Origin: Saccharothrix syringae
GTDB lineage: Bacteria; Actinomycetota; Actinomycetes; Mycobacteriales; Pseudonocardiaceae
Length of the DNA stretch: 64,000 nucleotides
Assembly: GCF_009498035.1 (NCBI RefSeq)
Contig: NZ_CP034550.1
Coordinates: 6,448,001 to 6,512,000 of the forward strand
Direction of reading: 5' to 3'
Both the position numbers and the translations under genes were made by a program. The notes under the pieces were generated by a model that was given only the letters and a program-made list of their open reading frames with translations, was not told the DNA's origin and made no database searches. Of this stretch, positions 35,724 through 59,788 are shown one piece after another (the first letter of the stretch is position 1; every line of letters starts with the position of its first letter).

Positions 35724-37073
35724 GTGACCGATTCCGCGTTGTTATCCCCGGTGTGGGCGGGAAGTGGCGACGGCCTTTCCGATGAAGCTTGGCTCGCCGC
35801 GATGCTCGAAGTGGAGGTGGCGCTGGCCCGCGCGCAGGCCGCACTGGGCGTGGTGCCCGAACGGGCAGCCGAAGTGATCGCGGACGTGGCCGGGTCGGCC
35901 CGACTGGACGTGGCGGACATCGCGGTGCGCTCCCGCGAGGCGGCCAACCCGGTGGTGGTGCTGGTGCAGCGGCTGACCGCCGCTGTCGCCGAGGTCGACC
36001 CGGCCGCCGCTGAGCACGTTCACCGGGGCGGCACCAGCCAGGACGTGCTGGACTCGGCGGCGGTGCTGCTGGCCTCGCGAACGTTGCGGGGGATCGACGG
36101 CGACCTGGTGAGGTCGGCTGACGCCTTGGCCCGGCTCGCCGACCGGCACCGGCACACCGTGCTGGCCGGCCGCACGATGGCCCAGCACGCGGTGCCGATC
36201 ACGTTCGGGCTCAAGGCCGCCGGGTGGCTCGCGGGCGTGCTGGACGCCTCCGACCGGGTTCGGCGCACCACCGCCGACCTGCCTGTGCAGTTGGGCGGTG
36301 CGGCGGGCACGTTGGCCTCCTACGAGGCGTACGCCGGCCGGCCCGGCCACGGCGTGCGGCTGGCCCGCGAGTTCGCCACCCGCCTCGGCCTGCGGGAACC
36401 GGACCTGCCGTGGCACGCACGGCGCACCCCGCTGCTGGACCTGGGCTGGGCACTGACCGCCGTCACCGGGGCGCTGGGCAAGATCGCGCTGGACGTGCAG
36501 GGCATGTCCCGCACCGAGGTCGGCGAGTTGGCCGAGCCCTCGGCGGAGGGCCGGGGCGCGTCCTCGGCGATGCCGCAGAAGCGCAACCCCGTGCTGGCCA
36601 CGCTGCTGGTGTCGGCCGCCCGCACGGTGCCCGCGCAGGCGCTGGTGCTGGGCCAAGCGCTGCTCGCGGAGGACGAACGCGCGCCCGGCGCGTGGCACTC
36701 GGAGTGGCAACCGCTGCGCGAGGCGCTGCGCACGGCGGCCGGTGCGGCGGCCACCGCGGTGACCTTGCTGGAGGGGCTGGAGGTGTTCCCCGGCCGGATG
36801 CGCGCCAACCTGGACCTGTCGGGCGGCGCGATCGTTGCCGAGCGGCTGAACGTGGTGCTCGCGCCGCAACTGGGCAAAGCCGGAGCGAAAGCGCTGTTGG
36901 GCCGGTTGGCCAGGGAGGCGGCGGCGGGCGAGCGGCCGTTCGCGGACCTGCTTCGGGAGGTGCCGGAACTCGACGCGGACCGAGTACACGATCTGCTGAA
37001 CCCTGAGCGCTACCTCGGAGCGGCCGCCGACCTGATCGACCGGGTCCTGGCCCGGCACCGCGACCACGGCTGA
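35724..37073 (+). CDS. creD: Nitrosuccinate lyase-like protein of the aspartase/fumarase superfamily (CreD-type)
   Basis: 449 aa from GTG 35724 (start VTDSALLSPVWAGSG is typical). Superfamily signatures are present: HRGGTSQDVLDSAAVLLASR (C1), GRTMAQHAVPITFGLKAAGW (C2), and SSAMPQKRNPV (C3, the flexible loop with the catalytic Ser). By sequence type it is PcaB/adenylosuccinate-lyase-like. CreD enzymes have this architecture and release nitrous acid from nitrosuccinate. No other protocatechuate-pathway gene is nearby and a CreE-type monooxygenase closes the cluster, so the CreD reading is favoured over 3-carboxymuconate cycloisomerase. Cytosolic. First gene after the IS graveyard. Confidence 0.72.
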   Translation: MTDSALLSPVWAGSGDGLSDEAWLAAMLEVEVALARAQAALGVVPERAAEVIADVAGSARLDVADIAVRSREAANPVVVLVQRLTAAVAEVDPAAAEHVHRGGTSQDVLDSAAVLLASRTLRGIDGDLVRSADALARLADRHRHTVLAGRTMAQHAVPITFGLKAAGWLAGVLDASDRVRRTTADLPVQLGGAAGTLASYEAYAGRPGHGVRLAREFATRLGLREPDLPWHARRTPLLDLGWALTAVTGALGKIALDVQGMSRTEVGELAEPSAEGRGASSAMPQKRNPVLATLLVSAARTVPAQALVLGQALLAEDERAPGAWHSEWQPLREALRTAAGAAATAVTLLEGLEVFPGRMRANLDLSGGAIVAERLNVVLAPQLGKAGAKALLGRLAREAAAGERPFADLLREVPELDADRVHDLLNPERYLGAAADLIDRVLARHRDHG

Positions 37074-37193
37074 CCCACCCCCGCGCGTTCCGCCACCAAA
37101 AGCGGATGCACAGCGCAAACGCCACGGTACTGGAAACACGTCCGGACCTCCACCATCCGGAAGCGCACAGTAGGCGGTTGATTACCGAACGGC

Positions 37194-37221
37194 TTGACAT
37201 CCCTTTTCGGTCGACTACCAT
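37194..37221 (+). promoter_or_regulatory. Sigma-70-type promoter for the MMPL exporter gene
   Basis: TTGACA (37194-37199), 16-bp spacer, TACCAT (37216-37221), about 50 bp upstream of the exporter start. Good match to the housekeeping actinomycete consensus. Confidence 0.55.
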
Positions 37222-37275
37222 CCGATTTGAAGGTTCATTCGGGTTCCAGTCTGTTCACGAAAGCGCTGGGTGGTC

Positions 37276-39435
37276 ATGCTCGCTTGGCTGGGGAGCGTCG
37301 CACATCGGCGCGCTCGCCTGATTCTGATAGTCGCCGGAATATTCCTGGTAGCCACCGGAATTCTAGCCGTGGGCGCCTTGAACAACGTGCGTCTGGGCGG
37401 TTATCTCGACGACAACTCGGAGTCCACTGCCGCGTCGAAGCTGATCAACTCGGAATTCGGCGGCCGCTACAACCTGATCCTCCTGGTGACCTCGGAATCC
37501 GGTGACGTGGATCGGCCGGAGGTGGCCGCCGAGGGGGCGCGCCTGAGCCGGGACCTGGCGGGCGAGAACTCGCTGACCAACGTGACGTCGTACTGGGCGA
37601 CCGGAATCCCGGCGCTCAAGACCGCCGACGGGAAGTCCGCGATCATCGCCGCCCACGTGGAGGGCGACGAGGACGCACAGCTCAGGCACGCCGAGGACCT
37701 GCACCAGAAGTACACGTCGTGGGGAGGGCCGTTCCGTGTCGAGTTCGGTGGTCAGGCGGCGGTCAACCGGGACGTGTTCGACGAGCTGATGACCAGCCTG
37801 GTCATCGCCGAGGCGATCGCCATCCCGGTCACCCTGCTGCTGCTGATCCTGGCGTTCGGCAGCGTGATCGCGGCGTTGCTGCCACTGGTCATCGGTGTGC
37901 TCGCGATCGTCGGCACGATGGCCGAGATCGCCGTGCTGGGCAACGTCACCGACGTGTCGATCTTCGCCACCAACCTGACCACCGGCCTGGGCCTGGGGTT
38001 GGGCATCGACTACGCGTTGTTCCTGGTGGCCAGGTTCCGGGAACAACTGGCCGCCGGCGACGACGTGGAGACCGCCGTGGCCACCACGACCCGCACGGCC
38101 GGCCGCACCATCCTGTTCTCCGCCATCACGGTCGCCGCCGCGCTGGCCACCATGGCGGTGTTCCCGCTGTACTTCCTGCAATCCCTGGCCTACGCGGGTG
38201 TGGGCGTGGTCGCCATCGCGGCCGTGGCCAGTCTGGTAGTCGTCCCGGCGTTGCTGTCCGTGCTGGGGCACAGGGTGAACGCGCTGAAGCTGCCCTGGTC
38301 CAAAAACAACCGGGGCTCCGACGCGCCGTTCTGGGGCAGGCTCGCCAGCAGGGTCGGCAAGCGACCTGTGCTGGCGGCGGTGCCGGCCGTGCTGGTGCTG
38401 CTGCTGATGGCCTCCCCGGCGCTGCACGCGGCGTTCGGCACGGTCGACGACCGGGTGCTGCACCACGACGTGGAGAGTCGCAGCGTCAACGACAGGCTGC
38501 GCCAGGACTTCGGGGCGTTCCCGGCCGCGCCGATCGAGGTGGTCCTACAAGGCGAGGTCGACCAGGCGGCGGTCGCGGACTACGCGCGGGAAGTGTCGTT
38601 GCTGCCCGACGTGACCAGTGTGCAGACCAGCGCGGGCATCTTCTCCCGGGGCGCCGTGGTGCTCCAGTTGCCCACGGACGCGATCCGCGGCAAGCCGCAC
38701 GCGCAGTGGCTCAGCGTCGCCACCGGCGAGCGACCCAAGTCCGAGCCGGCCGTGGACCTGATGAAGCAGTTGCGCGGCCGGGCGGGTCCGAGCGGCACGA
38801 CCGTGCTCGTGGGTGGCTCCGAGGCGGAGATGATCGACACCCAGCAGGCCATCGTGGACAAGCTCCCGTGGGCGTTCGCGATCATCGTCGTGATCACGTT
38901 CCTGGTGCTGTTCCTGTTCACCGGCGGCGTGCTGCAACCGGTGCGGGCCCTGGTGCTCAACGGGTTGAGCCTCGCCGCGACGTTCGGGATCATGGTCTGG
39001 GGCTTCCAGGACGGGCACCTGTCCGGTCTGCTGGGCTTCACGCCGCAGCCCACCGACACCGCGATGACGGTGTTCGTGTTCTGCGTCGTATTCGGCCTCT
39101 CCATGGACTACGAGGTCTTCCTGATCAGCCGGATCAAGGAGCTGCACGACCTGGGGCACTCCCCGGTGGAGGCGGTCAGCCTGGGGTTGGCCCGCACCGG
39201 CCGGATCGTGTCGACCGCCGCCGGCCTGCTGGCCGTGGTGTTCTTCGCCTTCCTGGCCAGCTCCATCAGCTTCCTCCAGCTGTTCGCCCTCGGCGCGGGC
39301 GCGGCGATCCTGATCGACGCGATCATCGTGCGCGGTGTGCTGGTGCCCGCCGCGATCGCGCTGCTCGGCCGGGCCGCCTGGTGGTCGCCGCCGCTGCTGC
39401 GCCGCGCCTACACCCGGGTGAAGCTCGCCGACTGA
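37276..39435 (+). CDS. MMPL/RND-family exporter
   Basis: A 719-aa protein of two homologous halves. One N-terminal helix (LILIVAGIFLVATGILAV) is followed by an extracytoplasmic loop (LDDNSESTAASKLINSEF) and five helices with GLGLGIDYALFLVARFRE. The second half repeats this: VDKLPWAFAIIVVITFLVLF, then VFGLSMDYEVFLISRIKELHDLG. The ID/MDY motifs are the proton-relay signatures of MMPL transporters. It probably exports the cluster product and so gives self-resistance. Own promoter at 37194-37221. An alternative GTG start lies two codons upstream. Confidence 0.85.
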   Translation: MLAWLGSVAHRRARLILIVAGIFLVATGILAVGALNNVRLGGYLDDNSESTAASKLINSEFGGRYNLILLVTSESGDVDRPEVAAEGARLSRDLAGENSLTNVTSYWATGIPALKTADGKSAIIAAHVEGDEDAQLRHAEDLHQKYTSWGGPFRVEFGGQAAVNRDVFDELMTSLVIAEAIAIPVTLLLLILAFGSVIAALLPLVIGVLAIVGTMAEIAVLGNVTDVSIFATNLTTGLGLGLGIDYALFLVARFREQLAAGDDVETAVATTTRTAGRTILFSAITVAAALATMAVFPLYFLQSLAYAGVGVVAIAAVASLVVVPALLSVLGHRVNALKLPWSKNNRGSDAPFWGRLASRVGKRPVLAAVPAVLVLLLMASPALHAAFGTVDDRVLHHDVESRSVNDRLRQDFGAFPAAPIEVVLQGEVDQAAVADYAREVSLLPDVTSVQTSAGIFSRGAVVLQLPTDAIRGKPHAQWLSVATGERPKSEPAVDLMKQLRGRAGPSGTTVLVGGSEAEMIDTQQAIVDKLPWAFAIIVVITFLVLFLFTGGVLQPVRALVLNGLSLAATFGIMVWGFQDGHLSGLLGFTPQPTDTAMTVFVFCVVFGLSMDYEVFLISRIKELHDLGHSPVEAVSLGLARTGRIVSTAAGLLAVVFFAFLASSISFLQLFALGAGAAILIDAIIVRGVLVPAAIALLGRAAWWSPPLLRRAYTRVKLAD

Positions 39436-39505: not shown

Positions 39506-40534
39506 GTGTTCGACAACGACGACCTTGTCCGCATCCTGTTCGGCTCTGCGGCGTTCCAGATGCTCAACGCCGGGTGCCGGCTCGGTCTGTTCCCGCTGCT
39601 GTCGGCCGAACCCGGCAGCACCGCCGAGGAGGTCGGCGCGGGCCTGGGCCTCAACCCCCGGCCGACCCAGACCCTGCTGCTGGGCACCACCGCGCTGGGC
39701 CTGACCACGCACGAGGGCGGCGGCTACCGCAACGCCGAGCTGATCGAGCAGCGGCTGCGCGACGGGACCTGGGAGATCATCGAGGACCTGGTGGCCTTCG
39801 AGGCGGGCATCGTGGTGCCCGCCGACCCGGACTTCACCGAGTCGCTGCGCCAGGACACCAACGTCGGACTGCGCCGGCTGGCCGGCGAGGGCACCGACCT
39901 CTACCACCGGCTGACCCACCACCCCGAGCTCAGCGACCTGTTCTACCGCTGCATGCACTCGTGGTCGCGGCTGTCCAACCCGGTGCTGGTGGCCGAGGCC
40001 GACCTCAGCGGTGTCACGCGGGTGCTGGACGTGGGCGGCGGCGACGGGGTGAACGCGATCGCGCTGGCCCAGGCGAACCCGGGCGTCGAGTTCACCGTGC
40101 TCGACCTGCCCGGCGCGGTGGGGATCGCCCGCCGCAAGGTCGCCGAACGCGGCCTGGCCGACCGGATCTCGGTGGTGGAGGGCGACATCTTCGCCGACGA
40201 CTACCCCGCGGGCCACGACTGCGTGCTGTTCGCGAACCAGCTGGTGATCTGGTCGCCGGAGGAGAACACCGCGCTGCTGGCCAAGGCGCACCGGGCGCTG
40301 CCGGCGGGCGGGCGGGTCCTGGTGTTCAGCGCCGTCTCCGACGAGAGCGGCGACGGCCCGCTGTACGCGGCGCTGGACAACGTCTACTTCACCACGCTGC
40401 CCGCCGCGAAGAGCACGATCTACCACTGGGGCCAGTACGAGGAGTGGCTGACCAAGGTCGGCTTCACCGACGTGGCCCGGCACGCCGGGAACACCTGGAC
40501 CCCGCACGGCGTGGTGAGCGCGCGCAAGCCGTGA
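39506..40534 (+). CDS. SAM-dependent methyltransferase (acetylserotonin O-MT-like, catalytic His missing)
   Basis: A 342-aa protein with an N-terminal dimerisation domain (AAFQMLNAGCRLGLFPLLS) and a class I methyltransferase fold: motif I VLDVGGGDGVNAI, DLPGAVGIARRKVAERGLAD, GDIFADDYPAGHD. In the usual catalytic position (HxWxD in O-methyltransferases) this protein has NQLVIWSPEENTALL: the general-base His is absent. It may therefore methylate carbon or nitrogen, or use another base. GTG start with AAGGGAG upstream. It converges on the kynurenine operon (18-bp gap), and probably tailors an aromatic intermediate. Confidence 0.75.
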   Translation: MFDNDDLVRILFGSAAFQMLNAGCRLGLFPLLSAEPGSTAEEVGAGLGLNPRPTQTLLLGTTALGLTTHEGGGYRNAELIEQRLRDGTWEIIEDLVAFEAGIVVPADPDFTESLRQDTNVGLRRLAGEGTDLYHRLTHHPELSDLFYRCMHSWSRLSNPVLVAEADLSGVTRVLDVGGGDGVNAIALAQANPGVEFTVLDLPGAVGIARRKVAERGLADRISVVEGDIFADDYPAGHDCVLFANQLVIWSPEENTALLAKAHRALPAGGRVLVFSAVSDESGDGPLYAALDNVYFTTLPAAKSTIYHWGQYEEWLTKVGFTDVARHAGNTWTPHGVVSARKP

Positions 40535-40552: not shown

Positions 40553-41812
40553 TCAGGTGATCCGTGCCAGGGCACGGGCGTGCCGCTCGTAGGACCGGCT
40601 GTCGAGCACTCCGCACAGCCGGTCCACCGCGTCCCAGAGCTCGGTGAACGTGGTGTAGAGCGGGGACGGCCCGATCCGCAGCCGGTCGGGGGCCCGGTAG
40701 TCGCACACCACGCCCGCGTCCTCGGCCAGCGCCCGGCAGATCCGCCACGCGTCGGGGTGGGCCAGCGACACGTGCGCGCCGCGCCGGTCCGGGTCGACCG
40801 GCGACGCGAGCCGGAAACCACGCTCCGCCAAGCGTTCCCGGGCCAGGTCGACCACGAACCGGCCCATCCGCACGCTCTTCGCCCGGATGCGCTCCACCCC
40901 GGCCTCCTCGACCACGGCCAGCGCCGGATCCACGGCGGCCAGCGACAGCAGCGGCGGCGTACCCACCAGGAACCGGTCCAGGTGCTCCACCGGGTCGTAG
41001 TCCGGCCCCATGGCGAACTGGTCGCGCTGCCCGAACCAGCCCTGGATCGGCTGGCGCAGCAGCGGTTGCAGTCCCTTGCGCACGTAGAGGAACGCGGGCG
41101 AGCCCGGTCCGCCGTTGAGGTACTTGTAGGTGCAGCCCACGGCCAGGTCCGCACCGGTCGCCGCGAGTTCGACCGGCACCGCGCCGGCGGCGTGGCACAG
41201 GTCCCACAGCACCAGCGCGCCGACCTCGTGGGCCATCCGGTTCACCTCGGCCATGTCCGGCATCGCCCCGGAGCGGTAGGACACGGCGGAGAGGACCACC
41301 AGGGCCACGTCCTCGTCCAGCGCGGCCCGCAACCGGTCCGGCGACAGGCCGCGGTCGATGTCGGACCGCAGTTCGCGCACGGTCCCGCCGTGGTGCTCGA
41401 CCAGGCCCTGCACGACGTACCGGTCGGTCGGGAAGTCGTCGGTGTCCACTACGACCACACCGCGGTCCGACGCCGCCAGCGCCGCCGCCGCCAGCTTGTA
41501 CAGGTTCACCGAGGTCGAGTCGGACAGCACCACCTCGCCGGGCCGCGCGCCCAGCACGTGGTCGGCCAGCCGGTCGCCGAGCCGGGCGGCCCAGTCGATC
41601 CAGTCACCCCACGACCGGATCAGGCCCCTCCCCCAGCCCTCGCGCACGACGTGGTCCAGGAACGCCGGGGTGGCGGCGGGCAGTCGGCCGAGCGAGTTGC
41701 CGTCCAGGTAGATCAGGTCGGGGTCGGCGACGACGAACCGGGCGCGGAACCGGGCGAGCTCGTCGTGCCCGTCGAGTTCCTCGGCCGCCGTGCGGGAGAG
41801 ATCACCTGTCAT
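40553..41812 (-). CDS. kynU: Kynureninase
   Basis: A 419-aa fold-type I PLP enzyme. IYLDGNSLGRLPA near the start, LSDSTSVNLYKLAAAAL, SYRSGAMPDM, and ALVLWDLCHAAGAVPVELAA (Asp binding the PLP ring) are present. The PLP lysine is in GCTYKYLNGGPGSPAFLYV. It cleaves L-kynurenine to anthranilate and alanine. It lies 24 bp after the TDO gene and ends the 14-gene operon. With no anthranilate dioxygenase or 3-hydroxylase nearby, anthranilate is likely a building block rather than a catabolite. Confidence 0.92.
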   Translation of the reverse strand: MTGDLSRTAAEELDGHDELARFRARFVVADPDLIYLDGNSLGRLPAATPAFLDHVVREGWGRGLIRSWGDWIDWAARLGDRLADHVLGARPGEVVLSDSTSVNLYKLAAAALAASDRGVVVVDTDDFPTDRYVVQGLVEHHGGTVRELRSDIDRGLSPDRLRAALDEDVALVVLSAVSYRSGAMPDMAEVNRMAHEVGALVLWDLCHAAGAVPVELAATGADLAVGCTYKYLNGGPGSPAFLYVRKGLQPLLRQPIQGWFGQRDQFAMGPDYDPVEHLDRFLVGTPPLLSLAAVDPALAVVEEAGVERIRAKSVRMGRFVVDLARERLAERGFRLASPVDPDRRGAHVSLAHPDAWRICRALAEDAGVVCDYRAPDRLRIGPSPLYTTFTELWDAVDRLCGVLDSRSYERHARALARIT

Positions 41813-41836
41813 GGGTCTGTTCGCCTTCCTCGGAGG

Positions 41837-42715
41837 TCACGACGTGGAGCGCACCGCCCACAGTTCGGGGAAGAACCGGTGCGAGCTGATCCGGTCCAGC
41901 CAGGCCACGCCCCGCGTGCCCCCGGTGCCGGGTTTGGTGCCGAGCAGCCGCTGGACGGTCACCAGGTGGGTGTACCGCCAGCGGGCGAACAGGTCCGCCG
42001 CGTCCACCAGGGCCTCGGCGAGCAGGTGCAGGTCGGGGTGCGCGCGCCGGTCGCGGTACACCTGCGCCCACGCCCGTTCGACCTCCTCGCTGGCCTGGTA
42101 GGGCTTCGTCGGGTCCGCGGCGAGGACGTCGGCGGGCACCGGCAGGCCACGCCGGGCCAGCAGCGCGAGGGTCGCGTCGTACACGCTCGGCTCGCGCAGC
42201 TGCGCCAGCACGTCCTCGTAGTAGGGCGAGTTGCGGTGCGCATCCACCATCGACGGGTTCTTGTTGCCCAGCACGAACTCCAGCCGCCGGTAGGAGAAGG
42301 ACTGGAAGCCCGACGCGCTGCCCAGCACGTCCCGGAACTCGGCGAACTCCTGCGGCGTGAGCGCGCCGAGCACGTCCCAGCACACCTGGAGCAGGCCCTG
42401 GACGCGGGCCGCGCGGCGCAGCACCCACAGCGCTTCGCCCACCTCGTCCTCGTCGATCCGGTCGCGGACCGCGGTGAACTCGATGCGCAGCAGGTTGAAC
42501 AGCAGTTCCTTGACCTGGCTGATGATGATGAAGCCGGGTTCGGTCGGCGCGGACGTGCGCGGGTCGAGCAGGTCCAGCAACGCGTCCATCTTCGCGTAGG
42601 TGACGAACGGCGTGTGCCCGTGCGGGAAGTCGACGATCGGCTCGCCACCGGACAGCTCCGCGAGCCGCAGTCGTTCGTCGTCCGAGGACAGCGGGCAGCC
42701 GTGGTCGCTCGTCAC
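41837..42715 (-). CDS. kynA: Tryptophan 2,3-dioxygenase
   Basis: A 292-aa haem enzyme. The family signatures are in order: TPFVTYAKMDALLDLL, GFIIISQVKELLFNLLRIEF, SASGFQSFSYRRLEFVLGNK, and WRYTHLVTVQRLLGTKPGTG with the proximal-haem His. It opens the indole ring of L-tryptophan to N-formylkynurenine. The start overlaps the formamidase stop (ATGA). It is the committing step of the cluster's anthranilate supply. Confidence 0.93.
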   Translation of the reverse strand: MTSDHGCPLSSDDERLRLAELSGGEPIVDFPHGHTPFVTYAKMDALLDLLDPRTSAPTEPGFIIISQVKELLFNLLRIEFTAVRDRIDEDEVGEALWVLRRAARVQGLLQVCWDVLGALTPQEFAEFRDVLGSASGFQSFSYRRLEFVLGNKNPSMVDAHRNSPYYEDVLAQLREPSVYDATLALLARRGLPVPADVLAADPTKPYQASEEVERAWAQVYRDRRAHPDLHLLAEALVDAADLFARWRYTHLVTVQRLLGTKPGTGGTRGVAWLDRISSHRFFPELWAVRSTS

Positions 42716-43524
42716 GTCGTCTCCTCCATCGCGGTGAGCACGGCGCCGCCCAGCGCCGTACCGGGGTCGGTCAGGTCGTAGGGCAGGTCGAAGTGGTTGC
42801 GGCCGGCCACCACGAACGAGGTCAGCGGGGCGCGCCAGGCCAGCGCGGCCACCAGCAGCGCGTGCTGGCGGTGGTACTCCTCGGTCTCGTTGTCACCGAC
42901 GGCGGCGATCACCGGGGGCAGCCGCTCGGGCAGCCACCAGATCGGGCTGTTGCGGCGCGCGCCCGCGAAGTCCAGGCCCAGCGCGTCGTTGACGTAGCTG
43001 CGGCGGACCGGTTCCAGGTCGTACATGCCGCTGAGCAGCACCAGGCCCGCCAGCGGCGGGCAGGCGGGGTCAACGGCGGTCATCGCGGCCAGGTGCGCGC
43101 CCGCCGACGTGCCGCACAGGTGGATGCGCCGGGGGTGGAAGCCGAGCCGTTCCGCGTTGGCGTGCAGCCAGTGGACGCATCGGCGGACCGCGCTGACGAT
43201 GTCGTCCAGCGCCGCGCCGGGCGCGAGCGGGTAGTCCACGGCGGCGAACGACGCACCGGCGGCCAGTGCGCCGGGCGCGCCGAACGCCGAGTCGGCGCGG
43301 CCCAGCGCCTGCCAGTTGCCGCCGTGCACGAACACCAGCAGCGGCCCGCCGGCCGGACCCGGGAACAGGTCGACCAGTTCGTCCGGCCCCGGCCCGTAGC
43401 GCGCCACGCGGACCTCGTGCCCGTCCCGCGCGGCGGCGCTGGCCACCGCGTACTCGTCCAGGTACCGCCGGAGGCTCGGCACCCGCGTGCTGGGCGAGTA
43501 CTGGCGGTCCAGTTCCGCCGTCAC
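42712..43524 (-). CDS. kynB: Kynurenine formamidase (alpha/beta-hydrolase type)
   Basis: 270 aa from GTG 43524, which overlaps the upstream stop (GTGA). Alpha/beta-hydrolase features: oxyanion HGGNWQ, nucleophile elbow GTSAGAHLAAM (Ser), Asp in VGDNETEEYH, and catalytic His in GRNHFDLPYDL. This is the eukaryote-like AFMID type rather than the metal-dependent KynB fold. It hydrolyses N-formylkynurenine to kynurenine, and its position between TDO and the rest of the operon supports that. Confidence 0.85.
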   Translation of the reverse strand: MTAELDRQYSPSTRVPSLRRYLDEYAVASAAARDGHEVRVARYGPGPDELVDLFPGPAGGPLLVFVHGGNWQALGRADSAFGAPGALAAGASFAAVDYPLAPGAALDDIVSAVRRCVHWLHANAERLGFHPRRIHLCGTSAGAHLAAMTAVDPACPPLAGLVLLSGMYDLEPVRRSYVNDALGLDFAGARRNSPIWWLPERLPPVIAAVGDNETEEYHRQHALLVAALAWRAPLTSFVVAGRNHFDLPYDLTDPGTALGGAVLTAMEETT

Positions 43525-44150: not shown

Positions 44151-44181
44151 TGCCCCCACCAAACCGGAATTCACACGACGG

Positions 44182-45120: not shown

Positions 45121-45151
45121 CGACCCCTCCTTCCGCCGCCGGGCGGACCGG

Positions 45152-51235: not shown

Positions 51236-52350
51236 GGCCGGAACCTCGCCAGGTTCGGGTCGCCGGGGGCGACGGGTGGACGCGGTGCGGGCAGGTCGAA
51301 CGTCAGCCTGGCCAGCACCTCGGGGTCCGCGGCGGGCAGCGGGCCGGCCACCAGGTCGGCCAGCCGACCGCGTTCCCAGATCCGGTCCAGGCCGATGTAC
51401 CGCAGCCCGATGACCCGGTTGCGCCAGCCCTTGGACAGCGGCAGGAACCGTTGCGCGTTGCCGGAGAGCCACAGGATCCGCTCCGCGCTCGCGGGCACCA
51501 GCCGCACCCACTCGCCGAACGCCCCGGGCGCGATGGACCGGGCGGTCTCCAGCAGGTTGCGCAAGGTCGGGGCCCGCTCCCCCGCCGTCACGTGCACGAT
51601 CACCGGCTCGGCCCGGGGTCCGGCGCGCACCATGCCGTCCAGGGCGTCGAGCAGGCCGCGGGCGGCGACGTCGCGGGGCAGGATGTCGACCCGCGCGCCG
51701 GGCATCGCGGGCAGCACCCGACCCGGCAGGTCGCGCCACCGGTCGGACAGCACGTACAGCGAGTTCCGCTTGGCGGTGCGGCCGGTGCGCGAGTCGCCCA
51801 GCAGCGCGCCGACGCGGGCGATCAGCACGTCGGGGTCGCCCGGCCGGTGCGCGGCCGCCAGCTCCCGCTCGGCCACCCATTTGCTCTCCTCGTACTGGGT
51901 GCGGTGCCGGTCCGGCGGCAGGGGCACCTCCGCGATCGAGCCGAGCGCGCCGCCGGCGACCACGAACGACGAGACGTGGCAGTACAGCAGGCGGCGCCCG
52001 GAGCGGCGCTGGAGTTCCCGCGCCACGTCCAGGCCGTGCCGCGCGCCCAGCACGTTGGTGGCGTACAGGTCGCGGGCGGAGGCCGCCCAGTCGGTGTCGC
52101 CGGCGAGGTTGAGCACCACGTCGACGGTGGCGGCCAGTTCGTCCAGCGCGGCCTCGGCCAGCCCCCAGGACGGCTGCCGCACGTCGCCGGTGACGATCCC
52201 GCCCGCCAGCTGCGGGAACACCCGGTCCACCGGCAGCCGGCCCGGCCGGTGCGCGCGCACCACGGGCGCGAGGTCGAGCCCCCGTTCGGGCGCGAGGTCC
52301 ACGACGGCGGAGCCCAGTTGGCCCGCGACCCCGGTCAGCAGCAGCTTCAT
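51232..52350 (-). CDS. Thioester-reductase-like NAD-binding protein
   Basis: 372 aa from ATG 52350 (ATGA overlap with the dehydrogenase gene). MKLLLTGVAGQLGSAVVDLA opens a Rossmann fold. VDVVLNLAGDTDW, NVLGARHGLDVARELQ, CHVSSFVVAG and YEESKWVAERELAA (YxxxK) resemble the NAD_binding_4 family, which includes thioester reductases of carboxylic acid reductases and NRPSs. It could release the ACP-bound acyl group as an aldehyde. Stand-alone form, no carrier domain. Confidence 0.7.
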   Translation of the reverse strand: MKLLLTGVAGQLGSAVVDLAPERGLDLAPVVRAHRPGRLPVDRVFPQLAGGIVTGDVRQPSWGLAEAALDELAATVDVVLNLAGDTDWAASARDLYATNVLGARHGLDVARELQRRSGRRLLYCHVSSFVVAGGALGSIAEVPLPPDRHRTQYEESKWVAERELAAAHRPGDPDVLIARVGALLGDSRTGRTAKRNSLYVLSDRWRDLPGRVLPAMPGARVDILPRDVAARGLLDALDGMVRAGPRAEPVIVHVTAGERAPTLRNLLETARSIAPGAFGEWVRLVPASAERILWLSGNAQRFLPLSKGWRNRVIGLRYIGLDRIWERGRLADLVAGPLPAADPEVLARLTFDLPAPRPPVAPGDPNLARFRP

Positions 52351-53561
52351 CCGAGGTCCACGCTCTCCGCGTAGCCGACGTGGTCGGGCACCAGACCCTT
52401 GGCGACCAGCTCCCACATCATCTCGTCGCTGCCGCCGCCGAGGCGGGCCAGCCGGGAGTCGCGCCACATCCGCGACAGCGGGGTCTCGTCCTCCAGGTAA
52501 CCCGCGCCGCCGAACAGGTGCATGCACTCGCTCATGACCTCCTCGGCGAACCGCGCGGCGGTCACCTTCACCGCGGCCAAGTCCCGCGTGTCGCACGCGC
52601 CGGCGACCGGAACCCCTTGTGCCGCCGCGTACACGGCGTACCGCAGCACGGTCAGCCTGGACGCCAGTTCGGCCAGCCGCAGCCGCAACGCCTGGTGCTC
52701 GATCAGCGGCACGCCGAACTGCTCACGGGTGTGCAGGTGCGCGGTGGCCAGGCCGATCGCGGTCGCCGCCCCGCCCACGGTCTGCGCGGCGATGGACAGC
52801 CGCTCGTGGTTGAGCCCCCACACGGCGGCGACGAGGCCGAGCCCGGTGCGGCCGACCAGCGCCTGGTCCGGCACCTCGGCGTCGATCGCCATCCAGGTGG
52901 TGTCCAGCGCGGACGTGCCCGCCTTGGTGTGCCGCTTGCGCGGGGTGAGCCCGCCGGCGGGCACCGCGAACAGGCCGAGCCTGCCCGCCACCGCGCCGGT
53001 GCCCTCGTCCAGTCGGGCCAGCACCAGCGCGAAGTCGCACACCGCGCCCAGCGAGAGGTACTTCTTCTCCCCCGCCACGTGCCAGCCGGTGCCGGTGCGG
53101 CGGGCCACCGTGCGCACGCCGTTGAGGTCGGACCCGCCGGTCGGCTCGGACGCGCCGAGGCAGCCGACCAGCCTGCCCGCCAGCATCCCGTTCAGGTAGT
53201 CGCGCAACAGCGGGGTGTCCCCGTAGCGGACCAGGATCGACGAGACCGTCTCGCAGTGCAGGCTCAGCCCCACCGACAGCCCGGCCTGCGCCAGCCGTCC
53301 GCTCTCCTCGGCGATGATCACGCCCATGCCCGGGTCGCCGTAGGGCCGCTGCTCCCAGCGCTCCCGGAACAGCCCGGCCCCGGCCAGCGGCACCAGCCGC
53401 TCGCGCGGGAACAGGCCGGTCCGCTCGGCCTCCCGCGCGACCTCCGGGTCGAACGCCTCCCGCAGCAGGGCCGCGACCCGCTTGCGGTACTGCTCGACGG
53501 GCTCGCCGAACGGCCCGTTCGCGAACAGGCCGCCGGGCGGGGCGACGCTGTGCTCTGCCAT
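52347..53561 (-). CDS. Acyl-CoA (acyl-ACP) dehydrogenase
   Basis: 404 aa from ATG 53561 (AGAGGAAC upstream). Full acyl-CoA dehydrogenase pattern: VGCLGASEPTGGSDLNGVRT, WHVAGEKKYLSLG, GLNHERLSIAAQTVGGAATA, LHTREQFGVPLIEHQALRLR, HLFGGAGYLEDETPLSRMWR, and GGSDEMMWELVAKGL. The usual catalytic Glu region reads GGSDEMM, so a base is present. FAD enzyme; likely desaturates the acyl chain on the ACP. Confidence 0.87.
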   Translation of the reverse strand: MAEHSVAPPGGLFANGPFGEPVEQYRKRVAALLREAFDPEVAREAERTGLFPRERLVPLAGAGLFRERWEQRPYGDPGMGVIIAEESGRLAQAGLSVGLSLHCETVSSILVRYGDTPLLRDYLNGMLAGRLVGCLGASEPTGGSDLNGVRTVARRTGTGWHVAGEKKYLSLGAVCDFALVLARLDEGTGAVAGRLGLFAVPAGGLTPRKRHTKAGTSALDTTWMAIDAEVPDQALVGRTGLGLVAAVWGLNHERLSIAAQTVGGAATAIGLATAHLHTREQFGVPLIEHQALRLRLAELASRLTVLRYAVYAAAQGVPVAGACDTRDLAAVKVTAARFAEEVMSECMHLFGGAGYLEDETPLSRMWRDSRLARLGGGSDEMMWELVAKGLVPDHVGYAESVDLG

Positions 53562-53602
53562 GTTCGTTCCTCTCGGCATCGGACTCGGTGTGCGGCACGC
53601 GG

Positions 53603-55273
53603 TCACGACGTGGGCCCGCCGGCCGGCGGCAGTTCGCCCGCCAGGTAGGCCAACCAGAGCGCACGTCGGCGTGGTTTGCCGCTGGAGGTCAGCGGGATCG
53701 TGCCGCGCGCGACGTGCCGCACCAGGATGCGGGCACCGGGCCCCCCGGACCGCTGGAGCACCGCGAGCAGCGCGTCGAGGTCGTCGCCGGGGTCCTTCTC
53801 GGTGACCAGCAGCACGGTCGGCGTGCCCGCCTCGATGCCGGCGACGACCGCCAGGTGCCGGTCCGGGATGCTCGTGGCGGCGCGCAGCTCCTGCTCGACG
53901 TCCTCGACGAACACGCTCTGGCCGTTGACCTTCACGCTGTCGCCGAGCCGGCCCACCACGTAGAGCTCGCCGTCGAGCAGGAACCCGGCGTCGCGGGTGT
54001 GCAGCCGGCCGCCGCCGAGCCGGGCGGCGTCCTCGGCGGTCGGGTCGAGGTAGCCGTCGGCCACCGACGGGCCCTCGACGTAGATCTCGCCCAGCACGCC
54101 CTCGGGCTGGCGCACCCCGTCCTCGTCCAGCACGTGCACGGTCAGGCCGGCCAGCGGAAGCCCGCAGCTGACCTGCCACTGCCACGGCTCGGCGACCGGT
54201 TCCACGCCGAGCTCGACCACTTCCAGGATCTCCACGGGCTCGCCGAGCCTGCGGTCCAGGGACTTGGTGTGCACCAGGCGCGGCACGCGGTCCGCCGCGT
54301 CGCCGGACACCGCCAGCGTGCCCTCGGCCAGTCCGTAGGCGGGCATCAGGGCGCGCACGTCGAACCCGGTGGGCTCCAGCAGCGCGGCGAACCGGGACAG
54401 CACGTCCGGGTCGATCCGCTCCGCGCCGCTGATCACCGTCCTGAGGTGGGACAGGTCCACGCCGACCAGGTCCTCGGGGCGGACCTTCTCCAGCACCTGC
54501 CGAAAGCCGAAGTTCGGCATGACCATGGCGTGGTAGGGGGTGCGGCCGTACTCGGCGAGCCAGCCCGCCGGGTCGCGCAGGAAGTGCGCCGGCTGCATCA
54601 GCGCGTGCTCCAGCTGCGCGGTCACCGCCGAGAGCAGGCCGCCGACCAGACCCATGTCGTGGTAGAGCGGCAGCCAGCAGACCGCGCCGTAGCGGTCCAG
54701 CCGCATCCAGCGCTGGATCATCCGCAGGTTCGCGGCCATGTTCGCCACGCTGATCCGCAGGCCGCGCGGGTCGCCCCGGGAGCCCGAGGTGAATTGCAGG
54801 ACGGCGGCCTCCCCGCGGGTGAACGGCAGATCGCCACCGTCCAGGTAGGACGGTTCGAGCAGCCGGGCACCGGCCAGGCCGTCCGCGAGCAGGTCCCGGT
54901 ATTGCGCGGCGACCACGGCGTGCGCGGGTCGGATCACGCCGGTGATGGCCCGCACCTGCCGCAGGTACGCCTCGGTACCGCGCAGCGCCCACGGCAGCGG
55001 GAGCACCGACGGCGTCGCGCCCAGCGCCAGCACGCCGAAGAAGTGCGTGACGAAGTCCGGGCCGGCGGGCACCGCCATCGGCACGACGTCCCCGGCGCGC
55101 ACGCCGGCGTCGGCCAGGGCGTGCCCGGCGCGCACGGCGTCGGCGGCGAGCTCGGCGTAGGTCCACCGCCGCCACGTGCCGTCGTCCCCGCGGAAGCGCA
55201 CGCCCCGTTCCGCGGTCGGGTCGGCAAGCCAGCCGACCAGCTGGCGGTGGTCCCGAGCGACCTGCCACGACAT
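53603..55273 (-). CDS. Fatty acyl-AMP ligase-like enzyme (FAAL)
   Basis: 556 aa from ATG 55273 (GAGGTG upstream). AVLQFTSGSRGDPRGLRIS (A3), CWLPLYHDMGLVGGLLSAV and PAYGLAEGTLAVSG are FAAL hallmarks; HTRDAGFLLDGELYVVGRLG and TSSGKPRRRALW complete the ANL set. FAALs activate a carboxylic acid as AMP ester and load it on an ACP. First gene of the 14-gene operon, just upstream of the dehydrogenase, so it starts the ACP branch. Confidence 0.82.
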   Translation of the reverse strand: MSWQVARDHRQLVGWLADPTAERGVRFRGDDGTWRRWTYAELAADAVRAGHALADAGVRAGDVVPMAVPAGPDFVTHFFGVLALGATPSVLPLPWALRGTEAYLRQVRAITGVIRPAHAVVAAQYRDLLADGLAGARLLEPSYLDGGDLPFTRGEAAVLQFTSGSRGDPRGLRISVANMAANLRMIQRWMRLDRYGAVCWLPLYHDMGLVGGLLSAVTAQLEHALMQPAHFLRDPAGWLAEYGRTPYHAMVMPNFGFRQVLEKVRPEDLVGVDLSHLRTVISGAERIDPDVLSRFAALLEPTGFDVRALMPAYGLAEGTLAVSGDAADRVPRLVHTKSLDRRLGEPVEILEVVELGVEPVAEPWQWQVSCGLPLAGLTVHVLDEDGVRQPEGVLGEIYVEGPSVADGYLDPTAEDAARLGGGRLHTRDAGFLLDGELYVVGRLGDSVKVNGQSVFVEDVEQELRAATSIPDRHLAVVAGIEAGTPTVLLVTEKDPGDDLDALLAVLQRSGGPGARILVRHVARGTIPLTSSGKPRRRALWLAYLAGELPPAGGPTS

Positions 55274-55448: not shown

Positions 55449-56438
55449 TCAGCCCGAAGAACGCAGATCGGGCCGTTGTTCCAGTTCCACCGCGAACTCC
55501 CGCCAGGCGGCCCCGCATTCTCGCGCGGCGGCCACCAGCACGTCCACGTAGCGGGCCGGTATCCGCTCCGGCGAGTACACCCAGTCCTGGGATTCCACGA
55601 CGCACGTGTAGAGCAGCCGCAGCAGCGTGCGCCCGGACTCGGAGAAGCGCAGCGCCGGGTCCTTGCGCAGCATGTGGATCAGCGCGAACCGGTCCACCGA
55701 CGGCGGTTTCGCGGGTGCCGCCGCCGGTCGGGCGGGCGGCGGCGGGTCACCGCGGCGCGGCGCGGCCACCGGCTCCTCGGCGCGTTCCAGCCGAGCCCGC
55801 ACGTCGCGCACGGTGGCCACCGAGATCCGGGTCCGCCGGGCGATCTCGCGCAGCGACACGTCCGGCTGCTCCACCAGCAGCCGCTCCGCCTCGCGCCGCC
55901 CTTCCGACACGTCGGCCAGCCGGATCGTGCCGTCCCTGCCGCGCCGGGCGGCCACGTCGACCGCCTCGCCGCCCTCCCGGCGGCGGATCGCGCCCACCGT
56001 CTTGTGCGCCAGCCCGGTGATCTCCGCGATCGACCGGTCCGACCAGTGGCCGTGCCGCAGCAGGATGCCCCTGGCCGCGGCCACCCGGTCGGCCAGCGTC
56101 AGCGGCAGGCCGTGCGCGGTGTTGAGCTGCACCGAGAGCACGAACGCCTCGTCGTCGTCGCAGTCGACGAACCGGGCGCGGATGTCGGTGTCGCCGCGCA
56201 AGCGGGCCGCGACCAGCCGGTGCGCGCCGTCCACCACCTCCCGGTTGCGCCGGTTCACCACGATCGGCGGCAGTTCCGCGTCGAGCTGCGCGAGCAGCCG
56301 GGTGTGAGCCGCGTCCACCCCGGCGGAACGGGGCGACGCCGAGGTGCGCAGCGAATCCAGGGGCACCGTTTCCACGGCACCCCCCGATGCCCACGCGGTC
56401 AACCGATTCGCCAAGCCGGCGGCGATCTCGACTTTCAC
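55449..56438 (-). CDS. StrR-family (ParB-like) pathway activator 1
   Basis: 329 aa from GTG 56438, preferred because GGGGGG lies just upstream; an earlier GTG at 56510 also exists. ParB-like domain: LPPIVVNRRNREVVDGAHRL, AFVLSVQLNTAHGLPLTLAD, HWSDRSIAEITGLAHKTVGA. A second HTH (SLREIARRTRISVATVRDVR) follows, then a helical C-terminal domain. StrR-type proteins bind long inverted repeats and switch on antibiotic clusters. It sits immediately upstream of the 14-gene operon. Confidence 0.85.
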   Translation of the reverse strand: MKVEIAAGLANRLTAWASGGAVETVPLDSLRTSASPRSAGVDAAHTRLLAQLDAELPPIVVNRRNREVVDGAHRLVAARLRGDTDIRARFVDCDDDEAFVLSVQLNTAHGLPLTLADRVAAARGILLRHGHWSDRSIAEITGLAHKTVGAIRRREGGEAVDVAARRGRDGTIRLADVSEGRREAERLLVEQPDVSLREIARRTRISVATVRDVRARLERAEEPVAAPRRGDPPPPARPAAAPAKPPSVDRFALIHMLRKDPALRFSESGRTLLRLLYTCVVESQDWVYSPERIPARYVDVLVAAARECGAAWREFAVELEQRPDLRSSG

Positions 56439-56534: not shown

Positions 56535-57494
56535 TCATGCCCGACCCGGGGCCGGCCGAACAGGAATGCGCCGGTCGGTGTCGCCCCCGTGCCGTTCCAG
56601 CCGCTCGGCCACGCCGTCCCACACCTCCGCGCACTCGCGGGCGGCCGAGGACACCAGCTCGACCAGGTGTCGGGGGGTGTGCTCGATCATCGGCTGACGC
56701 CGGCGCATCGACCGCATGTGCAGGTCGAGCAGGAGCAACAGCCGCTTGATCTCCCCGGAGCGCACCACCGGGTCGCTCAGCAGCGCGATCATGGCGTCCA
56801 CCGGTACCGGCGGCGGGTCCTCCAGCCGCTTGCGCACCTCCCGCACCGTCGAGGGCGACAGGCCGGTGGCCTTGGCGACCTCCCGCAGGGACGCGGACGG
56901 CCGGTCCTCCAGCATCCGCCGCGCCTCCAACCGGCTCACCGAGGTGTCCAGCGGCCACTGCCTGCCGTCCTGGCCGACCCGGTGGGTGTGCGAGTGGGTA
57001 CTTTCCCCACTCGCACACTTCCGCAGCGCCCCGACGGTCTTGTGCGACAGGCCCGCTATGGTCGAGATGCGCCGGTCGGACCACGTGCCGTGCTCGGCGA
57101 TCAGCCGGGCGGCCGCGGCCTTGCGGTCGGCCAGCGCCAGCGGCAGGCCATGTGTGGTGTTCGCGGTGACCGCCAGGACGAACGCCTCGGCCGGCGTGCC
57201 GTCGAAGAACACCACGTCGATCTCGACGTCGCCCCGGTGCTGTGCGGCGCGCAGCCGGTGCAGCCCGTCGACGACGCTCATGGTGGGGCGGTGCACGACG
57301 ATCGGCGGCAGGCTCCCGGCCACCTCGGCCAGCGCCCGCACGTGCGCCACGTCGACCCCGGCGGACCGGACCCGCCACCCCACCACGAGCGAGTCCACGG
57401 CGACCCTGGTCGGTGCCGAGCACTCCACTCCCGAGCCCGGGGCGACCGCCCCGTCCCGCCCACCCGCGACGGACCCATTGGTGACCGAAGACAT
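56535..57494 (-). CDS. StrR-family (ParB-like) pathway activator 2
   Basis: 319 aa from ATG 57494 (GGGGGG 2-7 nt upstream). Same architecture as its neighbour: LPPIVVHRPTMSVVDGLHRL, AFVLAVTANTTHGLPLALAD, TWSDRRISTIAGLSHKTVGA, SLREVAKATGLSPSTVREVR. The two are clearly paralogues. 96 bp separates them. Two such regulators in tandem is unusual for one cluster. Confidence 0.85.
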   Translation of the reverse strand: MSSVTNGSVAGGRDGAVAPGSGVECSAPTRVAVDSLVVGWRVRSAGVDVAHVRALAEVAGSLPPIVVHRPTMSVVDGLHRLRAAQHRGDVEIDVVFFDGTPAEAFVLAVTANTTHGLPLALADRKAAAARLIAEHGTWSDRRISTIAGLSHKTVGALRKCASGESTHSHTHRVGQDGRQWPLDTSVSRLEARRMLEDRPSASLREVAKATGLSPSTVREVRKRLEDPPPVPVDAMIALLSDPVVRSGEIKRLLLLLDLHMRSMRRRQPMIEHTPRHLVELVSSAARECAEVWDGVAERLERHGGDTDRRIPVRPAPGRA

Positions 57495-57928
57495 ATCCCC
57501 CCCGCCATCCCGCACGATAGATCGACTGGCTATCCTCGAATACCGGCGGCAACATCTACCCGACAGCCCTGCTGCGAATTCCTGAGCGGTCCGCCGGCCG
57601 ACCCCGCACAGCTGCGCGGCCGGCCCCTCCGGCCGCCCGGTGGTGCTCGACGGCCCGACTCTCGAACGAACCCGTGAATCGCACGGGTGTTCCCCCATCG
57701 GTGCCAACATGCCACGGGGGCCCACCGTTGGGTCAATCGGCCGATGGGGTCAATCGGTGAATGCGGACAACCGCCGCCGGGTTCCCCCGCTTGACATCCG
57801 TACCGAGCCGTACGGTTGACGGAACAAGAGCCATCCGACCCGGTCGAATGCGCCATCGGAAACGTCCGGTGGCAGGTTCCCGGCCCCGGTCGGAGCCGGG
57901 AAGCACCCCGCGCGGCGCGCACGGCCGG
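57495..57928. other. Regulatory gap before the StrR-type genes
   Basis: 434 bp without a gene, between the end of the CreE-type gene and the first StrR-type gene on the same strand. It probably contains the StrR promoter. Short TCGA-containing inverted repeats are visible near 57520-57545, but none matches the StrR consensus well. Confidence 0.45.
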
Positions 57929-59788
57929 TTAGCCCATTCCCAGGCAGGCCCGCGCGATGGCGTCCGAATCGCCCAGGATCACCGAATCCACCCCGGGTCT
58001 GATGCCCGCCGCGGTCGCCCAGTGCACCGACTCGGTCGGCACCCCGTAGGCGAATCGCGCCGGGTGCGGCCTGCCCGCGCGGTCCACCACCCGGTAGGGC
58101 CGCGCGGTGACATCCACCGCGCCGGTCTCGTACGCTCCGGCCAGGTCGTCCGGAATGCGATACGGCCGGCACTGCCCGCGCCCGACCATGTCGCCGAGCA
58201 GCGGCTCGGTCGCCGTGCGCAGGTCCGGAGCGGGCAGCCGCGCCTCGACCAGCGCGGTGACCAGCACCTGCGAGCCCGCGACGGCGGGCGAGGACACCAC
58301 GAACCCGCCCCGGCCGGGTCGGACCCGCAGCTCCGGGCCGACCGGCACCACCACCCCGGCCTCCACCAGCGCCACGAGTTCCGCGACCCGGCTCGGCGGC
58401 GGTCCGATCGAGGTGAACGCGTTGAGCGGCGTGTACCAGGAGCGCAGCTCGTCCCGGTACGACGCACCCGCGATACCGGCCTGGTCGACCGCCAGTCGCA
58501 CCTCGTTGCGCAGGTCGCGCAGCACGTCGAGGGCCGCCTTGAGCGGTCCGCGCACGTTGCCGCGCCGGGCCTGCGCCAGGTCGGACCGCAGGTGGTCGAG
58601 CATCCAGCGGCGGAACGCCCCGGGACCTGCGAACGCCAAGCCCCGCAACGGCTGCGCCACCGCGTCCCAGTCCCACCGTTCCCCGGTGCCCACGCCGTGC
58701 GCGCGCAGCAGCACGTCCACCTCCGCCGGGTCGGTGCGGACGTACTCGGTCAGGAACTCCCCCGCCCGTGGCGCGCCGTCCCGGTCGGCGATCAGCGCGT
58801 GGTAGTACACCGCCTCGACCTCCCGGGCGATCAGCGGCCACACGTGCGCGCGGAACTCCGTACGGGGGCGTCGCCGCAGGTCGCGAATGGTGTCCTGGTC
58901 GAGGAAGAGCGGCGCGTGCCGCCCGGTCGCGCCCTTCTGGTTCTCCCCGCGCGAGTGGTACGGGACACCGCGCCGCGACCCCGCGTACAGCACGGGCTCC
59001 TTCCCGGAGGGCTCGTAGCGCGGGGCGTCGCGGTCGCCGGTGAACCGCCCACCGCGCCCCACCGTGAGCAGTGCCACGTGGTCGAAGAAGTTCAAGCCCA
59101 GGCCGCGCACGCCGACCGGTTCGCCGGGGGTGACCCGGTCGTGGTCGGCCTCGGCGGGGTTGCCGGGCGGCAGGTAGGTCAGGCCGTGGCGCGCGGCGAA
59201 CCCCGCCAACTCGCGCTCGACCCCGGTGGGCGCGGCGTCCACGTGGCCCTGCGCCAGCACCACCGCCTCGACCACCACCCGCGTACCGTCGTCGAGCAGC
59301 ACGGACTGCCCGCCACCGGGCAGGTCGTCCAGGGACAGCGCGGTCCGCTGGTGGCGCACCACGGTGACGTCGGGCGGCGCGGTGCGCGTGATGTGGTCGA
59401 GGAACCAGCACAGGTAGTGGCCGTAGAAGGCGCGCGTGGGGTAGGAGTCCGGGCCGAGCCCGGCGGCTTCCGCGCGCACGAGGGCGGAATACCCGCCCGC
59501 CGTGCCGGCGGCGACATCCCGGGCCCAGTCGTACAGGCTCGGGCCGGGTTCCACCGGACCCGCGCACCGCACGCTGTCGTCGGTGAACATGGTGACCTGG
59601 GAGGCCACCGTATTCATGACCAAAGAATCCGGTTGTCCGGTGCGCCAGACCCGGCCGCCGAATCCGAGGTAGGGGTCCACGACGTGCACCTCGACCGGTT
59701 CCCCGGTGGTCCGGGCGTTCGCGCAGAGTCGTTCCAGCACGGACAGGCCCCGCGGGCCCGCGCCGATTACGCAGATCCTGTTCGCCAC
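57929..59788 (-). CDS. creE: L-aspartate N-monooxygenase-like flavoprotein (CreE-type)
   Basis: 619 aa from GTG 59788. An FAD-binding start RICVIGAGPRGLSVLERLCA, then FGGRVWRTGQP, MNTVASQVTMFTD, a central VVLAQGHVDAAPTGVEREL, LPPGNPAEADHD and GLGLNFFDHVALLTVGRGG. This layout is that of the large FAD/NAD(P)-binding proteins that include CreE and FzmM, which oxidise aspartate to nitrosuccinate. With the CreD-type lyase it would generate nitrous acid. It stands at the far right of the cluster, 311 bp from the next gene, with its own promoter region. Confidence 0.72.
   Translation of the reverse strand: MANRICVIGAGPRGLSVLERLCANARTTGEPVEVHVVDPYLGFGGRVWRTGQPDSLVMNTVASQVTMFTDDSVRCAGPVEPGPSLYDWARDVAAGTAGGYSALVRAEAAGLGPDSYPTRAFYGHYLCWFLDHITRTAPPDVTVVRHQRTALSLDDLPGGGQSVLLDDGTRVVVEAVVLAQGHVDAAPTGVERELAGFAARHGLTYLPPGNPAEADHDRVTPGEPVGVRGLGLNFFDHVALLTVGRGGRFTGDRDAPRYEPSGKEPVLYAGSRRGVPYHSRGENQKGATGRHAPLFLDQDTIRDLRRRPRTEFRAHVWPLIAREVEAVYYHALIADRDGAPRAGEFLTEYVRTDPAEVDVLLRAHGVGTGERWDWDAVAQPLRGLAFAGPGAFRRWMLDHLRSDLAQARRGNVRGPLKAALDVLRDLRNEVRLAVDQAGIAGASYRDELRSWYTPLNAFTSIGPPPSRVAELVALVEAGVVVPVGPELRVRPGRGGFVVSSPAVAGSQVLVTALVEARLPAPDLRTATEPLLGDMVGRGQCRPYRIPDDLAGAYETGAVDVTARPYRVVDRAGRPHPARFAYGVPTESVHWATAAGIRPGVDSVILGDSDAIARACLGMG

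Follow-up and report, generated by a model that had tools for sequence, protein, structure and literature searches.

A gene cluster at 35724-59788 of a 64,000-nucleotide stretch of Saccharothrix syringae DNA (the window; positions 6448001-6512000 of a 10.93 Mb single-contig genome) combines a predicted nitrous-acid pathway, a predicted anthranilate supply and a recurrent set of ten genes. We propose, with a probability of roughly 40%, that this cluster alkylates anthranilate and that nitrous acid then attacks the alkylated amine. Its two ends are a CreD-type lyase (g31, 35724-37073, plus strand) and a CreE-type flavoprotein (g50, 57929-59788, minus strand). Between them, fourteen minus-strand genes (g34-g47, 40553-55273) lie as one operon, with 7 of its 13 junctions overlapping and the other 6 being gaps of 14-85 bases. 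The operon encodes a kynureninase, a tryptophan 2,3-dioxygenase (TDO), a formamidase-type hydrolase, a DUF6875 protein, a UbiA enzyme, an ANL ligase, an ATP-grasp/swivel protein (g40), g41, an acyl carrier protein (ACP), a second swivel protein (g43), two short-chain dehydrogenase/reductases (SDRs), an acyl-ACP dehydrogenase and a fatty acyl-AMP ligase (FAAL). Gene identities came from our own gene calls and from Pfam and NCBIfam profile scans of the window proteins. They uphold an initial annotation of this DNA, which had CreD- and CreE-type genes bracketing a 14-gene operon and had named among the cluster's members ANL ligases, of which two genes are present, a UbiA enzyme, an ACP and a phosphoenolpyruvate (PEP)-synthase-like unit. 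Ten operon genes, hereafter the core (FAAL, ACP, dehydrogenase, reductases, a split rifampin-phosphotransferase-like pair, UbiA and others), recur together in seven loci of Streptomyces and Amycolatopsis (L009-L015); given this recurrence and the strong family matches, the grouping is not by chance.

Nitrous-acid enzymes at the cluster ends

Conversion of L-aspartate to nitrosuccinate, the CreE step, is a well-supported prediction for g50 (PF13454). It matches the solved L-aspartate N-hydroxylase 8cp2 at 616 bits and 55% identity, and no other distinct PDB sequence matches it at E up to 1. PMC10404684 names 11 residues for the arginine cluster and entry chamber of the Streptomyces sp. V2 L-aspartate N-hydroxylase; g50 is identical at all 10 that align, R597 lying outside the aligned part. 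The flavoprotein thus stays with the aspartate N-monooxygenases, and the lyase likewise does not group with true 3-carboxymuconate cycloisomerases, the two tests on which the initial annotation had staked its nitrous-acid proposal.

For the lyase, the alternative is that g31 is itself a 3-carboxymuconate cycloisomerase and that the cluster has no nitrous-acid pathway. From its GTG start at 35724, g31 matches CreD (PDB 5xny) at 422 bits and 57.7% identity, against 264 bits for a cycloisomerase. In a 51-row tree, a branch with support of 99/95 parts the lyases whose genes adjoin those of protocatechuate dioxygenase (PcaGH-linked) from a set holding the CreE-linked lyases and g31, the linkage being Pfam-checked as PcaG, PcaH and PcaL type in one locus (L095) and as PcaH in another (L092), and by similarity in the rest. 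On the CreE side, g31 shares a subclade with proteins known from database entries alone; among them, P0230 passes the nitrosuccinate-lyase profile NF052556 (675.7 bits, cut-off 650). We also surveyed 200 genomes of the same family, in which CreE adjoins 27 of 35 non-window relatives of g31 at E up to 1e-130 (25 directly and 2 more when inspected, the CreE gene call being short in one of these two). No pca genes occur among the Pfam-annotated genes of the cluster, the PcaH-linked lyase of this genome shares only 46% identity with g31, and g31 falls short of the pcaB profile (TIGR02426, 341.1 bits, cut-off 355.75).

Several observations favour the cycloisomerase. With 568.7 bits, g31 does not reach the NF052556 cut-off. 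Its identity to CreE-linked lyases (54-59%) is similar to that to PcaGH-linked ones (46-57%), many near relatives carry cycloisomerase names, and its closest family relative (G031, 83%) is among the 8 of 35 not beside CreE. The CreD active-site fingerprint (E49/H118/D125/H253/R341 and the SS-loop, according to PMC13411527) is also kept in the PcaGH-linked cycloisomerases checked, and we discarded it as a discriminator. Profile scores alone were set aside as well: on NF052556 the sole PcaGH-linked lyase scored (L095) reaches 540 bits against 541-772 for eight CreE-adjacent lyases, and on TIGR02426 it reaches 420 against 335-362, with 3 of the eight above the cut-off. It is the tree and the gene neighbours, more than the profiles, on which the nitrous-acid reading stands. 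We regard release of nitrous acid from nitrosuccinate by g31 as well supported at the level of homology, and a cycloisomerase without a nitrous-acid pathway as very improbable.

Further observations concern these enzymes. The 83% relative (G031:C1:3925019-3926362, L113) is without CreE nearby and is flanked by a beta-lactamase-family gene and an alpha/beta hydrolase. Probable nitrosuccinate lyases such as P0122, P0128 and P0138 bear the database names 3-carboxymuconate cycloisomerase or adenylosuccinate lyase. At L103, L104 and G022:C1:961548-964835, one long frame holds both CreE and CreD, resembling the spinamycin SpiED entry in PMC11705231. In Streptomyces sp. SAJ15, just the C-terminal end of CreE is left (L028, 17313-17561), adjoining an intact CreD.

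Anthranilate supply and the recurrent core

Anthranilate would come from tryptophan by the kynurenine route, in agreement with the initial annotation. Sequence makes two identities clear: the kynureninase g34 (40553-41812; PF22580; TIGR01814 255.2 bits, above the cut-off of 246.4) and the TDO g35 (41837-42715; PF03301; TIGR03036 296.8 bits, below the cut-off of 390.7). The alpha/beta hydrolase g36 (42712-43548; PF07859/PF20434) is likely the kynurenine formamidase, judging by its position and its HGGNW and GTSAG motifs, the former being an instance of HGGxW, which we take to mark this role; its top NCBIfam match is a lipase family, under cut-off. The DUF6875 protein g37 (43521-44138; PF21780) is likely a partner of TDO. 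DUF6875 is fused to TDO in two genomes (L149 and L150) and lies beside TDO and kynureninase in a third (L148), and so it probably serves the conversion of tryptophan to kynurenine. In about half of 20 places viewed, DUF6875 adjoins large genes that are by appearance, not by profile, probable nonribosomal peptide synthetases (NRPSs).

The core genes follow on the same strand. UbiA-family g38 (44182-45120; PF01040 over the gathering score) is likely an aromatic alkylating enzyme. Next come an ANL ligase (g39, 45152-46702; PF00501), with 55-58% orthologues in L009-L015, and g40 (46788-47855), which carries a dikinase ATP-grasp domain and a His swivel domain (PF01326, PF00391). Across 12 aligned homologues of g40, GGK, RSS..ED, Q.RP.T and the swivel His are conserved, motifs that we take to be dikinase signatures, as in pyruvate phosphate dikinase. 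The small partner g41 (47852-48484) is conserved in G001-G009, G012 and G013, and alone of the cluster genes has no Pfam or NCBIfam match. An ACP follows (g42, 48499-48765; PF00550, LGIDSL motif), and then g43 (48762-50255), whose fold match and domain architecture are those of the substrate-binding and His-swivel half of rifampin phosphotransferase (RPH), a hydroxyl phosphotransferase. In the RPH family, ATP-grasp, substrate and swivel domains share a single chain; here they are split into g40 and g43. The PEP-synthase-like unit of the initial annotation, whose pieces are present, is better described as a split rifampin-phosphotransferase-like enzyme.

The remaining core genes are two reductases, SDR1 (g44, 50252-51235; PF07993/PF01370) and the thioester-reductase-like SDR2 (g45, 51232-52350; PF07993), an MbtN-like acyl-ACP dehydrogenase (g46, 52347-53561; PF00441) and FAAL (g47, 53603-55273; 177 bits to the FAAL structure 3pbk). 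The protein database has at least 160 relatives of g43, and in one database protein (P0032) SDR domains are fused to about 77% of g43. At L028 (11777-15502, 1241 aa, Pfam-checked) and L030 (11777-15328), a single frame encodes FAAL together with an ATP-grasp/swivel dikinase; both loci have supply genes of the 3-amino-4-hydroxybenzoate (3,4-AHBA) type upstream.

A pattern-based scan of 84,980 genomes with 33 aligned g43 relatives, which may miss loci, found complete or partial copies of the core at 28 further loci, in genomes of Streptomyces, Amycolatopsis, Actinomadura, Frankia, Nocardia and Micromonospora. We compared the window proteins by tblastn with these loci, each taken with flanks of up to 10 kb that contig ends shorten in several cases. 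SDR1 is present in all 28, SDR2 in 27, the dehydrogenase likewise in 27, FAAL in 26, the ACP in 21, g41 in 17 and a g38-type UbiA in 10. Genes for kynureninase, TDO, formamidase and DUF6875 were found in none of the 28 within 10 kb and in none of the 21 that we extended by up to 30 kb each side. None of the 28 carries the window's whole gene combination. In 16 of the 21 extended loci a UbiA-family gene is 10 kb or less from the core, and in a 17th it is about 16 kb away; these counts do not use our local UbiA profile, which was built partly from proteins it then found.

Other aromatic suppliers accompany the core in these extended loci. Genes of the 3-hydroxyanthranilate type, starting from chorismate, occur in 6 of the 21; in L009, 3-deoxy-D-arabino-heptulosonate 7-phosphate (DAHP) synthase, isochorismatase and dihydroxybenzoate dehydrogenase were checked, and a 2-amino-2-deoxyisochorismate (ADIC)-like synthase (cluster c16) is assigned by sequence reading only. 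Three loci have 3,4-AHBA-type genes, the pair in L028 scoring below NCBIfam cut-offs. Four (G014, G015, G022 and G083) have, at 5-12 kb from the core, a type III polyketide synthase that exceeds the cut-off of PF00195 (chalcone-synthase family), and one (G011) has an anthranilate synthase. The core is a recurring machine joined to several aromatic suppliers, the window version using tryptophan. Because it occurs with these other suppliers, mostly without CreD/CreE nearby, anthranilate is first of all the core's likely building block. The initial annotation had called anthranilate the natural acceptor of nitrous acid; the supply stands, and acceptance of nitrous acid as its main role is unproven.

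Two of the 21 extended loci, those of Nocardia RYN_116 (G011) and Antrihabitans (G022), have CreD and CreE together no more than 25 kb from the core; near the core of a third (G016), CreD is intact and CreE is a remnant. Among 25 other core genomes, CreE comes this close to the core in 2, against 0.076 copies expected by random placement, a rough, post hoc estimate based on 13 CreE copies that are nearly full length and at least 50% identical, with partial, split and less similar ones dropped. The Nocardia RYN_116 metagenome-assembled genome holds the core, UbiA, DAHP synthase, a fused anthranilate synthase (TIGR01815 850.8, above the cut-off of 739), a CreM-like diazotase, CreE and CreD on one contig. 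Two lineages have thus joined the same core to anthranilate and nitrous acid through different anthranilate routes, which makes a role of nitrous acid on an anthranilate-derived amine likely, not certain.

A proposed pathway and its alternatives

In the pathway we propose, TDO, formamidase and kynureninase would convert tryptophan to anthranilate, as homology supports. Gene families, fusions and co-conservation suggest that FAAL loads an acid onto the ACP, that the MbtN-like dehydrogenase turns it into an enoyl-ACP and that the two SDRs, presumably SDR2 before SDR1, yield an allylic alcohol by reduction of the thioester. The g40/g43 pair, with g41, would phosphorylate this alcohol, and UbiA would alkylate anthranilate with the activated allyl group. 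CreE would oxidize L-aspartate to nitrosuccinate and CreD would free nitrous acid from it, both well supported by homology. Nitrous acid might then diazotise or nitrosate the aromatic amine, either non-enzymatically or through a diazotase encoded elsewhere, and the MMPL transporter would export the product. More tentatively still, and with some doubt, we suggest that the core is a portable actinomycete route in which an ACP-bound acid becomes an allylic alcohol and, after activation by a split (pyro)phosphotransferase, a non-isoprenoid alkyl donor for UbiA, with exchangeable aromatic suppliers; here, joined to nitrous acid, it could give an undescribed product with an N-N bond, such as a diazo compound or an ortho-cyclised indazole or cinnoline.

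A number of findings weigh against this proposal. Literature searches of open-licence PMC papers returned no precedent for the alcohol-to-UbiA route, which is why every step from FAAL to UbiA is something we infer. FAAL (NF006624, 270.7 bits, cut-off 600), the dehydrogenase (MbtN profile NF037942, 343.8, cut-off 700) and the reductases (SDR2 on TIGR01746, 84.9, cut-off 213) are all under NCBIfam cut-offs. No core-assignable UbiA was found in 4 of the 21 extended loci (G012, G013, G014 and G022); near the core, G013 has just a high-scoring UbiA-family gene about 19 kb off, of a sort that ranks first in other genomes as well. In 7 of the 21 (G006, G008, G009, G012, G013, G019 and G020) we recognised no aromatic supplier, and with CreD and CreE together in only two, the core does not need nitrous acid. 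The profile search also found, among the cluster genes, no CreM/AvaA6-type ATP-dependent diazotase of the kind in cre, ava, cma, aha and pzm clusters. We tried g39 in this role and rejected it: on the AvaA6 diazotase profile NF058622 (cut-off 975) it scores 72 bits, against 392 and 406 for two CreM-like proteins, and it scores higher on several general ANL profiles.

Prenyl diphosphates are the normal substrates of UbiA-family enzymes, and the UbiA of this cluster could use an ordinary one. In that case anthranilate would receive a normal polyprenyl group of primary-metabolic origin, and the FAAL core would make a separate acyl or alkyl piece (an ester, amide or amine), joined in a step that we presume to resemble those of PigC and TamQ. 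The RedH/PigC profile matches of g40 and g43, all below cut-off, fit this account. Against it stand the g43 fold match to a hydroxyl phosphotransferase and the recurrence of UbiA at core loci, where it belongs to three sequence groups and takes several positions. We hold this account to be unlikely, though it fares best among the alternatives.

CreD and CreE might instead be mere neighbours that provide nitrite for another pathway, leaving a product without an N-N bond. Most core loci lack the pair nearby, another CreD/CreE pair lies at 2.14 Mb in this genome, and the window's CreD and CreE are not adjacent. Yet they bracket the cluster, CreD shares its strand with the MMPL gene at short spacing, CreE is found near the core more often than the rough random expectation, and the Nocardia locus has a diazotase in addition. 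This too we judge improbable.

A tasikamide-like scheme appears more improbable again. In it, the core would supply a fatty alcohol for ester formation with (hydroxy)anthranilate, and a diazotase encoded in another part of the genome would act on that ester. The scheme has a model in the aha cluster, which makes an alkyl 5-hydroxyanthranilate diazotised by Aha11 (according to PMC11705231), and a candidate enzyme in the sole CreM-like gene of the genome at E up to 1e-60 (G000:C1:7348046-7349647, L128; 406 bits). That gene lies about 0.84 Mb from the cluster, with its own C-A-PCP NRPS and ABC transporter alongside. The scheme leaves UbiA and the phosphotransferase pair unexplained, and Pfam scans recognised no aromatic hydroxylase among the cluster genes.

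Flanking genes and known systems

Left of the operon and facing it, CreD is followed by an MMPL-family transporter and likely exporter (g32, 37270-39435, plus strand; PF03176) and a methyltransferase (g33, 39506-40534, plus strand; PF00891). An MMPL gene 62% identical to g32 adjoins the core in Amycolatopsis arida (L015), and distant O-methyltransferases (25-31% identity to g33) lie near it in G014 and G022. On the right, two ParB-like regulators with helix-turn-helix matches (g48, 55449-56318, and g49, 56535-57428, both minus strand) precede CreE; g48 has a 55% orthologue in L014 and shares a sequence cluster with proteins of G001-G007. Transposase-type genes at 33405-35307 and 62725-63426 border the cluster, with an extracytoplasmic function (ECF)-type sigma factor and a pyridine-nucleotide oxidoreductase at 60103-62219. 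Outside it, at 18271-20877 of the window, a protein carries an eCIS core domain (PF13699).

If the proposed pathway is true, UbiA enzymes can draw on fatty acids, and not on isoprenoids alone, through a phosphotransferase family best known from antibiotic inactivation. The core would then be a genome-mining handle for alkylated aromatics, and the foremost places to look for new N-N natural products would be the window and the Nocardia RYN_116 locus. No publication on this gene set, on the core operon, on nitrous acid with a prenyltransferase or aminobenzoic acid, or on kynureninase with diazo compounds or nitrous acid was found in the open-licence PMC literature by title and abstract start.

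PMC11705231 describes CreD/CreE clusters for cremeomycin, alazopeptin, tasikamides, spinamycin, penzonemycins, avenalumic acid and p-coumaric acid. Closest in logic, by its published description and not by gene content, is the tasikamide cluster aha of Streptomyces tasikensis (BGC0002661), which has CreD/CreE homologues and an anthranilate-based amine bearing an alkyl part. Unlike the window cluster it has a CreM homologue, Aha11, and its substrate is a 5-hydroxyanthranilate ester. The cremeomycin (cre), penzonemycin (pzm), avenalumic acid (ava) and p-coumaric acid (cma) clusters likewise pair CreD/CreE with an aminobenzoate-type amine. They have a CreM/AvaA6-type enzyme, unlike the window cluster, and pzm, ava and cma obtain the amine by other routes; the published descriptions consulted, which are not full gene lists, mention no operon like the core. 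For pzm, PMC9323291 proposes a chorismate route to 3-hydroxyanthranilate. The main texts of PMC10777205 and PMC11429834 on 3,4-AHBA-based clusters do not contain the words kynuren-, anthranil- or prenyltransferase.

Relative to RPH-Lm, g43 matches the substrate-binding and swivel part and g40 gives an ATP-grasp and a swivel domain; unlike RPH-Lm, the window enzyme is split over two genes and has two swivel domains. In related core loci the kynurenine route is replaced by 3-hydroxyanthranilate supplies, presumably of the calcimycin/pzm type, or by 3,4-AHBA supplies, which we take to be of the GriI/GriH type, whereas the window draws on tryptophan catabolism. If the inferred steps hold, the attachment route of the carbon chain to anthranilate would be new, and the cluster would be one of a known nitrous-acid kind attached to a core with new chemistry.

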